37,828 nt of DNA from a virus. How positions within the stretch are numbered: the first letter of the stretch is position 1; each line of letters opens with the position of its first letter. The DNA is taken from positions 1-37,828 of IMG/VR virus record IMGVR_UViG_3300004770_000047; one strand, 5' to 3'. The position numbers and the translations under genes were made by a program. Of this stretch, positions 28,576 through 30,865 are shown in pieces. Under the pieces are notes generated by a model. That model did not search any database. It had not been told where the DNA came from and worked only from the letters and a program-made list of their open reading frames with translations.

Positions 28576-28615
28576 TTGACCGTCCCGTCAATCCGTGCAA
28601 TTACTGCACGGTCAA
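28576..28615. promoter_or_regulatory. Composite operator between divergent genes (site 2 of 3)
   Basis: TTGACCG (28576-28582), CGTCAA (28586-28591) and CGGTCAA (28609-28615), with the same order and nearly the same spacing as at 63-101 (39 bases there, 40 here). TTGACCGTCCCGTCAA matches the 63-78 palindrome at 14 of 16 positions. An extra dyad CGTGCA/TGCACG lies at 28594-28610. The plus-strand unit (28646 on) and the leftward gene at 28535 diverge from here. No strong -10 box is clear in either direction, so activation or weak promotion is possible. Confidence 0.55.
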
Positions 28616-28645
28616 CAAACGGAGGCTTCGGGCGGAGGGGCGCAA

Positions 28646-28954
28646 ATGACCGACGAACAATTTCAAATTCTCGAAACGTGGCTTTTGGCGGCGGCGGAAG
28701 CTTCGGCGCGCAAAAACCCCGACACGCTCAACAATTACGGGCTTCGACGTCTTGAAGCCCGCGCGGCGCTGGTCGATCCGAAGCCGAAGGCCGCGCCCAA
28801 TTGGTCCGGGGCGTTGCTGGCCGCTCTGTCCATGCTGGTGGCCGACGATCTGTATTACGACGGGCCGAATATCGTCATCCGGTGCGAATCGCACGCCGAC
28901 GCGATCCGGCGCGTTTATGACGCCCGGCGCGTAATTGAAAAGGCGACCCAATGA
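28646..28954 (+). CDS. Hypothetical protein, first gene of the counter-oriented plus-strand unit
   Basis: 102 residues from ATG at 28646, six bases after a strong GGAGGGG; a longer in-frame start at 28595 falls inside the operator and is rejected. The chain is helical and mixed-charge (TDEQFQILETWLLAAAEASA, YGLRRLEARAALVD, LLAALSMLVADDLYYDGPN, CESHADAIRRVYDARR). No domain is recognised. Its stop overlaps the start of the helix-turn-helix gene (ATGA). It is transcribed opposite to the late genes on both sides, so it is probably an early or regulatory gene. Confidence 0.7.
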   Translation: MTDEQFQILETWLLAAAEASARKNPDTLNNYGLRRLEARAALVDPKPKAAPNWSGALLAALSMLVADDLYYDGPNIVIRCESHADAIRRVYDARRVIEKATQ

Positions 28955-29160
28955 CCGGCGCGGAGTATCGGGCGCACCTGGCCGCCCTCGATCTGTCCAT
29001 TGTCGGCGCGGCTCGCGTCCTTGGCGTCAGTGAGCGCACGGGGCGGACCTTCGCCAGCAAAGGCCCAAGCCCGCCGGCCGCCGTGGCGATCCGGGCCATT
29101 CTCAACATGGAGCCCGATCCGCGGCGCGACTTCCTAGCTACTCTTCGAAGCCCGGAATGA
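28951..29160 (+). CDS. Small helix-turn-helix DNA-binding protein
   Basis: 69 residues, ATGA-coupled to the previous gene. The core MTGAEYRAHLAALDLSIVGA with ARVLGVSERTGRTFASKG is a Cro/XRE-like helix-turn-helix, as in short phage regulators that carry little else. It lies just downstream of the second operator copy, so it is a candidate ligand of the three operators, though nothing in sequence proves that. Its last 23 bases overlap the 3' end of the MuF gene on the other strand. Confidence 0.75.
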   Translation: MTGAEYRAHLAALDLSIVGAARVLGVSERTGRTFASKGPSPPAAVAIRAILNMEPDPRRDFLATLRSPE

Positions 29161-30865
29161 TCGGAACGGACACGCATCGGCAATTTTTAGCCTGTGCAAA
29201 CGCATCGCCTACGGTATAGTATCCGTCTTGCGTTTCCATGGTGAAAACATGCCCCGAATAATCCGAGATGACCTTATTGACCACGCTGCGAAATTGATAG
29301 CGGACGGCGTCAAACTCCAGGACGCGGCAACCGCTGTTGGCTGCAATGTGGACGAATTGAGCAAAAAGCTCAAAGCGCAAAACGTCGCCATCGAGCGGCG
29401 GACCAATTGGGACGAACTTGGCGACGCCATCGTGCAGATGTATGCGGAAGGCTTGGGGACGACAGCTATTGCCGCCGCCTTGGGCTTTCCGCGACATGCT
29501 GCGTCCAGCATTCGCAATGTTCTCATCCGTCGCGGCGTCATGCGTGATCGCAGCGGCGGAAACGTCCATCGGTTTGCGCGTGCCAGCGACGACGAAAGGC
29601 GAAAGATCGTAGCCCCCGCGCGTCGTCGGCGCGTTCGAAACATGGCCGAAGCGGCCCTCAAAGGCGTCGATTACCACGGGGTCGGTTTTGCCGAACATGA
29701 AGTTGCGGAGATTTTGCGCGGCGGAGGTTTGCCCATCGATACGCAAGTCATCGTCGATAATAATTACTTCATCGACGTGGTTTTGTGGCCGCTCGCCATA
29801 GAAGTTAAATCGGCTCGCGTCTCTGCGAACATCTCCAAACACACTCGCGCACGTTACGAAAAGCTCGCCAAATGTGGTTATTCTTTGGTTTTCGTTGTGG
29901 CCAATCACGTCCCCACCTTGTTGCGCCACGCAAACGACTTGATCGCCGCAATCAAGCTCGCCCATAGCGACCCACCCCCGCGCGGTGAGTATTGGGTGAT
30001 TCAATGTTCCCTTGATCGAACAGCCGCCAAGGTCAACGTCGATCATTTTTCCATCGAAAGGCGTTTTCCAGATTTTCCGGGGCAAATCTTTTAGCGTCAC
30101 AAGGGTTTCCGGCGGAAAGCAATTGATTTCGACGCCGGGCCATGTCCATTTGCCCTCTAGATACGCCCCGGTCGCGACGTCGTAGGTTTTCCCCGAGAAA
30201 GCTACGTGTTCCGGCCGGGGCGTTTTGCCGCCCGCACTGTGCAACCATTTGGCCTTGGTGATTCCAAGCTCCTGTTGCCGCGTGCGCGTGAGGACCGCCG
30301 TCGCCTTGTTGTTCTGGTCGCGCGCGATGAAAGCGGCCCGGCGCTTCGTGACCCCGTAATGGCCCTGGAGCTCTTTCGTCAACGTCCCAAGGTCGCGGCC
30401 CGTCTGCACGGAGCGCATGACCGATCCTTCGACCTGCGTCAGATAGTTGCGGGGGATCGACCGGATCAGCGCGACATTCTCGCCGATGATCGCTTGCAAT
30501 GCGTCGTTTTGCGCGGCCGTCGCCTTGAATTTCACGGTGAAGCCGGCCCGGCGCAATGAGGACCGGAAAGCCGCATCGGAACGCTCGCTTACGTCCGTCG
30601 CGAAGTAGCGCGCCAATTCCGGCGCCAGGGCGTCAAAGCGTCGCAGCCAGCGGCGTCCGAGCCGTCGCAGGGCTGCACGTAGCATCATGGCGGGAGAGGC
30701 GTCAGCGGCCATTTCTGGCGGATTGGCGCGGTATGTTGCTGACAGCCAATAGTCCACGCTGTTGTGCATCTCCGCAATCAGCTTATCGAGCCGCTTTTGA
30801 TATGCGATCCGAAGCCCGACGTTGGGGCGGACGGGACTAGTAGTTTTCGGGGACGCGGTCCGCAT
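29138..30865 (-). CDS. MuF-like head morphogenesis protein interrupted by an intein
   Basis: 575-residue precursor. The N-extein (1-248) is a MuF/SPP1 gp7-type minor head protein: YQKRLDKLIAEMHNSVDYWL, RAALRRLGRRWLRRFDALAP, NDALQAIIGENVALIRSIPR, LTQVEGSVMRSVQTGRDLGT, then KWLHSAGGKTPRPEHVAFSG and WPGVEIN. The C-extein (562-575) starts CRCVSVPIIPGF. Rejoining gives EIN-CRCVSVP, the metal-binding Cys pair usual at the end of MuF domains, so splicing at 248/562 restores the family pattern. The start overlaps the portal gene end by 29 bases, with AAGGG upstream. The end overlaps the plus-strand helix-turn-helix gene. Confidence 0.9.
   Translation of the reverse strand: MRTASPKTTSPVRPNVGLRIAYQKRLDKLIAEMHNSVDYWLSATYRANPPEMAADASPAMMLRAALRRLGRRWLRRFDALAPELARYFATDVSERSDAAFRSSLRRAGFTVKFKATAAQNDALQAIIGENVALIRSIPRNYLTQVEGSVMRSVQTGRDLGTLTKELQGHYGVTKRRAAFIARDQNNKATAVLTRTRQQELGITKAKWLHSAGGKTPRPEHVAFSGKTYDVATGAYLEGKWTWPGVEINCFPPETLVTLKDLPRKIWKTPFDGKMIDVDLGGCSIKGTLNHPILTARGWVAMGELDCGDQVVCVAQQGGDVIGHNENQRITTFGELFVTCASVFGDVRRDASRFNFYGERPQNHVDEVIIIDDDLRIDGQTSAAQNLRNFMFGKTDPVVIDAFEGRFGHVSNAPTTRGGYDLSPFVVAGTRKPMDVSAAAITHDAATDENIANAGRSMSRKAQGGGNSCRPQAFRIHLHDGVAKFVPIGPPLDGDVLRFELFAQFVHIAANSGCRVLEFDAVRYQFRSVVNKVISDYSGHVFTMETQDGYYTVGDAFAQAKNCRCVSVPIIPGFEE
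29183..30121 (-). other. Intein in the MuF gene (313 residues)
   Basis: Block A CFPPETLVTLKDL starts at the Cys coded at 30121-30119. Block B GTLNHPILTARGW holds the Thr-x-x-His motif (T39, H42). Near the end, SGHVFTMETQDGYYTVGDAF and AQAKN followed by extein Cys correspond to blocks F and G. The penultimate residue is Lys (K312) instead of the usual His; Asn313 and the +1 Cys are present. There is no LAGLIDADG or HNH motif between B and F. The roughly 220-residue linker includes RFNFYGERPQNHVDEVIIID, which I associate with the linker of MuF-type inteins. Almost the whole element is antisense to the nuclease gene at 29249-30094. Confidence 0.88.
29249..30094 (+). CDS. Putative homing endonuclease encoded antisense to the intein
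   Basis: 281 residues from ATG at 29249, with GGTGA eight bases upstream; a TTG seven codons earlier is possible. Order: helix-turn-helix 1 (about 7-45: IRDDLIDHAAKLIADGVKLQ, AATAVGCNVDELSKKL); helix-turn-helix 2 (about 54-100: DELGDAIVQMYAEGLGTTAI, AALGFPRHAASSIRNVL); a basic linker (ARRRRVRN); then a PD-(D/E)xK-like core, NNYFIDVVLWPLAIEVKSAR, with Asp176, Glu185, Lys187, followed by ARYEKLAKCGYSLVFVVAN. An acidic helix with Glu149/Glu151 could supply the first acid. The EDxHD/Vsr-like homing enzymes are a possible relative. Every base is also an intein codon on the other strand, in exact codon register. It follows the plus-strand helix-turn-helix gene after 88 bases. Confidence 0.72.
   Translation: MPRIIRDDLIDHAAKLIADGVKLQDAATAVGCNVDELSKKLKAQNVAIERRTNWDELGDAIVQMYAEGLGTTAIAAALGFPRHAASSIRNVLIRRGVMRDRSGGNVHRFARASDDERRKIVAPARRRRVRNMAEAALKGVDYHGVGFAEHEVAEILRGGGLPIDTQVIVDNNYFIDVVLWPLAIEVKSARVSANISKHTRARYEKLAKCGYSLVFVVANHVPTLLRHANDLIAAIKLAHSDPPPRGEYWVIQCSLDRTAAKVNVDHFSIERRFPDFPGQIF

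Follow-up and report, generated by a model that had tools for sequence, protein, structure and literature searches.

What is encoded opposite an intein that seems to carry no nuclease of its own? The question is raised by a virus record from IMG/VR, the 37.8-kb stretch of DNA that was analysed as a whole and is here called the window. Its MuF-type minor capsid/head morphogenesis gene (29138..30865, minus strand; Pfam PF04233, 1.1e-9; phrog_324, 2.9e-78) adjoins a portal gene and encodes a precursor of 575 aa, interrupted by an intein of 313 aa (29183..30121, minus strand; EIN/CFPP...QAKN/CRC, with slashes at the junctions). Wholly within the intein, on the plus strand, lies a putative homing-endonuclease gene of 281 codons plus stop (29249..30094) in exact codon register: nuclease residue j stands opposite MuF residue 540-j, the two codons being reverse complements. 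A preliminary description of the locus had already drawn the 313-residue intein with its blocks A, B and F/G, the 281-codon frame on the same triplets, and two helix-turn-helix (HTH) segments in the product of the latter; coordinates and register proved exact, and both HTH segments are seen again here (Pfam HTH_23, AlphaFold helices). We put the probability that this is a mobile intein whose splicing and homing functions lie on opposite strands at roughly 0.88, with cleavage, site specificity, splicing and plus-strand transcription being inferred.

What kind of protein does the plus strand specify? Searched alone, the window protein returned only an HTH and no nuclease match from family libraries, and only chance matches from the PDB (phmmer), so its identity as a nuclease becomes visible only with relatives. 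AlphaFold predicts two HTH units followed by an alpha-beta nuclease domain (pLDDT 83). The first HTH (residues 7-43; 29267..29377) rests on the predicted helices and a likeness to the GcrA DNA-binding domain (Z 7.0), the second (residues 58-94; 29420..29530) on helices and Pfam HTH_23 (1.6e-6), while conservation, AlphaFold and structural and profile matches define the Vsr/EDxHD-type nuclease domain (residues 147-254; 29687..30010, with E149, D176, E185 and R202). Among 350,542 PDB chains, Foldseek ranked the catalytic domain of the homing endonuclease I-Bth0305I (3r3p) first, and structural realignment scored Vsr at Z 10.8 and 3r3p at 10.7. The same structure was matched by the family profile from sequence only (E 2.2e-6), and relatives match MTES_1575, DUF559 and Vsr. 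Invariant in 35 members are E149, Y173, D176, A183, E185 and R202. The D-x8-E-x-K motif of the preliminary description is present in the window as D176-x8-E185-x-K187, but its lysine is not conserved across the family. Many of the 35 members read AVEVFGGGWH; the window version lacks GGGWH and thereby the histidine. The disordered tail (residues 258-281; pLDDT ~35) faces the N-terminal Hint region. A Vsr-like PD-(D/E)XK nuclease fold is thus predicted for the plus-strand product.

Two further, small plus-strand reading frames of the window (28595-28954 and 28951-29160) extend into the 3' end of MuF and terminate 88 bases short of the nuclease start; the second has a weak HTH match. They could be co-transcribed with the nuclease gene. 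A promoter scan returned two weak matches.

How widespread is this arrangement? With the window protein as query, tblastn found antisense matches in phages Aaphi23 and S1249, each within a head-protein gene; two relatives as queries matched 114 and 129 phage records, and scans of viral and bacterial contigs added more than 120 loci. Fetched records whose match falls in an annotated gene for MuF, a head protein or a minor capsid protein carry no annotation of the antisense gene. The sense frames of the related loci are MuF insertions with intein blocks, the host gene, where Pfam names one, being MuF, portal, or portal plus MuF. Of 144 related loci from phages, prophages and plasmids, 141 have an in-register opposite frame free of stops over the whole match, and the remaining two reverse frames always contain them (up to 47). 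Since GC contents range from 0.36 to 0.71, including genomes of 36-45% GC, GC-rich shadowing is not the cause. Most loci were found using the nuclease as query, which biases the set toward intact nuclease frames. A search based on MuF, and thus without selection for the nuclease, yielded three more inteins (L186, L196, L224), each with an antisense nuclease of 281-297 residues. TTA, CTA and TCA codons are missing from 124 embedded nuclease genes and number 5-12 in three free-standing relatives. For the window by itself, 3.8 antisense stops are expected and none is present, which is only modestly surprising (P of about 0.016) and bears out the caveat, raised with the preliminary description, that this register yields shadow frames in GC-rich DNA. 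The case for a real antisense gene is made by the comparison across 144 loci.

Some relatives have a single stop in the nuclease frame and an open sense intein frame (L040, L047, L048, L055-L058, L071-L073, L075 and L088), as expected for the decay phase of a homing cycle. On a Streptomyces platensis plasmid (L029, 1705-2595), the antisense protein has an additional cysteine-rich, zinc-ribbon-like segment (CEVC...CGYDC) before its HTH. Weaker genome hits from two phyla searched were set aside, being mostly short matches to the HTH or the nuclease domain with opposite frames that are not open across an intein.

Selection on the two strands can be told apart, as the antisense wobble position coincides with sense position 1 in this register. 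We expressed antisense omega as dNN/dNS, by counting estimates, for which extein controls, instead of giving exactly 1, mostly gave 0.57-1.04 (extremes 0.43 and 1.38; the pair with 0.43 had no usable overlap). Overall, antisense omega is 0.16-0.51 in the overlap compared with about 0.6-1.4 in most extein controls. The clearest set consists of nine Guernseyvirinae phages (Jersey group), in which the highest rate is that of sense position 3 in the exteins and past the nuclease start, and that of position 1 only inside the overlap. In this group, the overlap has an antisense omega of 0.245 (0.18-0.31) and a sense omega of 0.42 (0.31-0.55); the antisense values for the two exteins are 0.74 and 0.85. 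Gordonia, Klebsiella/Edwardsiella and metagenomic pairs gave antisense values of 0.16-0.51 in the overlap and mostly 0.57-1.38 in exteins. For the window itself, whose copies are identical, the test relies on a single relative found through MuF, L196: antisense omega is 0.49 (0.41-0.59) in the overlap versus 1.04 (0.83-1.34) in the extein, and sense omega in the overlap is 0.69 (0.56-0.86). Comparisons of the window with L116, L117, L123 and L125 are saturated and offer little or no contrast. Both frames of the antisense pair are thus protein-coding and under purifying selection.

The preliminary description had inferred that nuclease and splicing element are two antisense genes that can move as one unit, an idea that would have fallen had the plus-strand protein lacked homologues, had its frame often been broken in relatives, had that strand shown no purifying selection, or had its product been predicted without a nuclease fold. 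Homologues are abundant in tblastn and contig scans, most relatives have open frames and only a few a single stop, the window-L196 comparison reveals purifying selection on the plus strand, and the predicted fold of the 281-residue product has I-Bth0305I and Vsr as its best matches. Homologues, open frames, selection and fold hence support the two genes; their movement is inferred.

What, then, speaks for mobility? MuF alleles without the intein, whose existence the preliminary description had left to be checked, were found in numbers: in 54 examined alleles among the MuF relatives of the window, the site is read through (e.g. EGKWTWPGVEINCRC, L181). L186 and L187 are ~90% identical around the MuF gene, with the intein present in L186 only. 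Salmonella phage jersey and E. coli phage Snoke share 95.6% identity in the intein and 67.5% in the N-extein. Over MuF codons 140-600 of L163 and L166, identity is 99% in the intein, ~77% in the adjacent extein and above 90% in the distal extein, a profile that, judged by these alignments, looks like the co-conversion tract of a homing event. Free-standing nuclease relatives reside beside an intein-less MuF in Acinetobacter phage IME285 (L021, 413-2118) and in a metagenomic phage (L140, 2456-3787), in both cases on the strand opposite MuF and overlapping its 3' end. In Aeromonas phage 4_D05 (L005, 2489-4498), convergent minus-strand genes follow an intein-less MuF and, by eye, look unrelated to the nuclease family. 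Mobility of intein and nuclease is thus inferred, with empty alleles and transfer signatures in support, and cleavage and homing are likewise inferred.

Alternatively, the antisense protein might be a former homing endonuclease that now decays or serves another role, for instance in late-gene regulation via its HTHs. The single stops in the relatives named above would fit, as would a window version of 281 aa devoid of the GGGWH motif of many relatives. We nevertheless consider this unlikely, as all 35 members retain E149, D176, E185 and R202, most pairs show strong purifying selection, and transfer between genera has occurred recently.

And what does the minus strand encode? Block A (CFPPETLVTL; 30092..30121, minus strand) lies beyond the coding codons of the nuclease. 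Block B (GTLNHPILTARG; 29975..30010, minus strand) is opposite the conserved nuclease strand GEYWVIQC, the window's NHPIL facing EYWVI, and an FHGD-like sense motif (RFNFYGERPQNHVDEVIIID; 29753..29812, minus strand) mirrors the catalytic strands of the nuclease (residues 169-188), FNFYGE facing the catalytic LAIEVK strand. Blocks F and G extend to the C-terminal Asn (29183..29254, minus strand; pLDDT 72-96). Both Hint halves are confidently predicted, with inteins as best structural matches, and between them intein residues 124-272 (29306..29752, minus strand), opposite the nuclease HTHs and linker, remain below pLDDT 50. C1, N313 and a +1 Cys are in place, C1 and the terminal N being invariant in 26 sequences. 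Empty alleles read EINCRC and give the exact junction, and MuF is split precisely at N/C. Pfam PF14890 does not match the window intein, relatives were matched, and the sense family profile retrieves solved inteins (PI-PkoII, E 2.9e-11). The minus-strand insert meets the description of an intein with blocks A, B, F and G and a Hint fold; its splicing is inferred.

Could the nuclease gene alone be real, and the sense strand no more than a tolerated, non-splicing insertion, like the out-of-frame HNH element of ShiLan? About 150 sense residues lack a confident fold, and the HTHs face the stretch with the weakest sense selection between the window and L196 (0.86, 0.58-1.28). Such an insertion, however, would hardly retain all four intein blocks with an invariant C1 and terminal N, be recognized as an intein by its profile, interrupt MuF exactly at N/C, or reach the sense omega of 0.03 observed beyond the overlap for blocks F-G of the Jersey group. 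We regard this explanation as highly improbable, and retain an intein that harbours an antisense nuclease.

The two genes meet in block F. In 89 of 104 non-redundant loci, the nuclease starts opposite the block-F His (GHVYNLE/Q), with ATG in 79 and GTG in 10, and a Shine-Dalgarno-like site, often GGAGG, lies opposite the residues that follow this His. In the window, the translation start (29240..29251, plus strand) is opposite GHVFTME and consists of a weak Shine-Dalgarno GGTG 5 nt upstream of the ATG; its assignment draws on the sequence, on the family-wide position of start and Shine-Dalgarno in block F and on codon bias. Among representatives below 40% identity, the block-F His is CAT in 29/29 (13.3 expected from the same genes) and the Leu is CTC in 21/29 (5.7 expected). 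In 19 ordinary Actinomycetota inteins that served as controls, His never occupies this place, the Leu is CTC in 3/11 (3.7 expected), and 17 contain antisense stops. Going by these codons, block F, read backwards, is the putative Shine-Dalgarno sequence and start codon of the nuclease, and the sense codons are biased accordingly.

That the antisense frame is a mere shadow, with GC-rich codon usage in this register rarely making reverse stops and antisense similarity being a by-product of sense conservation, would agree with the modest P value of the window and with the fact that, in exact register, antisense similarity always accompanies sense similarity, but the flip in codon-position rates, the occurrence of the same arrangement at 36-45% GC and the codon bias led us to reject it as next to impossible, all the more since conservation of the antisense protein exceeds that of the sense protein within the overlap and falls below it elsewhere, the antisense profile matches a solved homing endonuclease, and Shine-Dalgarno and start codon are selected at sense-synonymous sites, features that control inteins lack.

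How does this arrangement compare with known systems? In canonical large inteins of the PI-SceI and PI-PkoII type, with their in-frame LAGLIDADG or HNH nucleases, splicing element and nuclease likewise travel together, the nuclease lies between blocks B and F, and the insertion site is a conserved residue in a conserved gene. By contrast, the MuF-intein nuclease is a separate, Vsr/EDxHD-like protein that the other strand encodes, with a sense insert that is mostly filler. It shares the nuclease domain fold and an E...D...E core with I-Bth0305I and the EDxHD/Vsr-like homing endonucleases, whose catalytic set comprises E, D, x, H and D. The known enzymes of the latter kind are intron-encoded or free-standing, and we know of none that is an antisense gene within an intein.

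Closest among published cases are the ShiLan-type insertions and antisense genes of group I introns. The former are out-of-frame HNH insertions in phage methylases, on the same strand, without a splicing domain or a detectable RBS (PMC11855218). They resemble the present case in that a homing endonuclease occupies another frame of an insertion left open in the host frame, and differ from it since the MuF-intein nuclease is antisense, Vsr-like and preceded by a Shine-Dalgarno within a real intein; with its orientation, fold and splicing blocks, the MuF element does not qualify as a hidden HNH insertion. Nuclear group I introns may likewise carry homing endonuclease genes (HEGs) on the strand opposite the splicing element, but there the intron itself is non-coding and the gene occupies one of its peripheral insertions, P9.2 (PMC9548176), thus without a coding conflict between two proteins. 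Our literature search found no description of an antisense nuclease in an intein, the content of one source excluded: a 2025 preprint by Gosselin et al. on non-canonical intein architecture in actinobacteriophages (doi 10.1101/2025.01.02.630785), which is cited for overlapping frames in PMC11855218, may describe part of the arrangement, at least in actinobacteriophages. Novelty is claimed subject to this reservation. With it, we lean towards viewing these loci as an undescribed, widespread class of mobile MuF inteins that place splicing protein and homing endonuclease on two strands in exact codon register, with block F doubling as RBS and start of the nuclease, and nuclease motifs being mirrored in block B as well as in the FHGD motif.

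How might such an element function? Both frames, their predicted folds, the two-strand selection, the conserved antisense start, the empty alleles and the transfer signatures were computed here; the following scheme is inferred from them. The minus strand would be read together with MuF into a precursor, from which the Hint halves (blocks A/B and F/G) would excise the intein, the ~150 residues between them being presumably mostly filler. A plus-strand transcript would yield a separate, double-HTH homing endonuclease of the Vsr/EDxHD type, whose cut most probably falls at the EIN^CRC codons of MuF alleles that lack the intein. Repair from an intein-bearing copy would then install splicing element and nuclease gene jointly, after which the installed intein would splice itself from MuF.

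With these inteins, long antisense overlapping genes become available as a large natural collection that can be aligned, and the fold of each of the two proteins can be identified. The collection permits direct tests of whether same-register antisense genes are real and of how two proteins share their codons. For the MuF inteins themselves, the arrangement represents another way to build a mobile intein, and it explains those that seemingly have no nuclease: the gene lies opposite the capsid gene and was never annotated.
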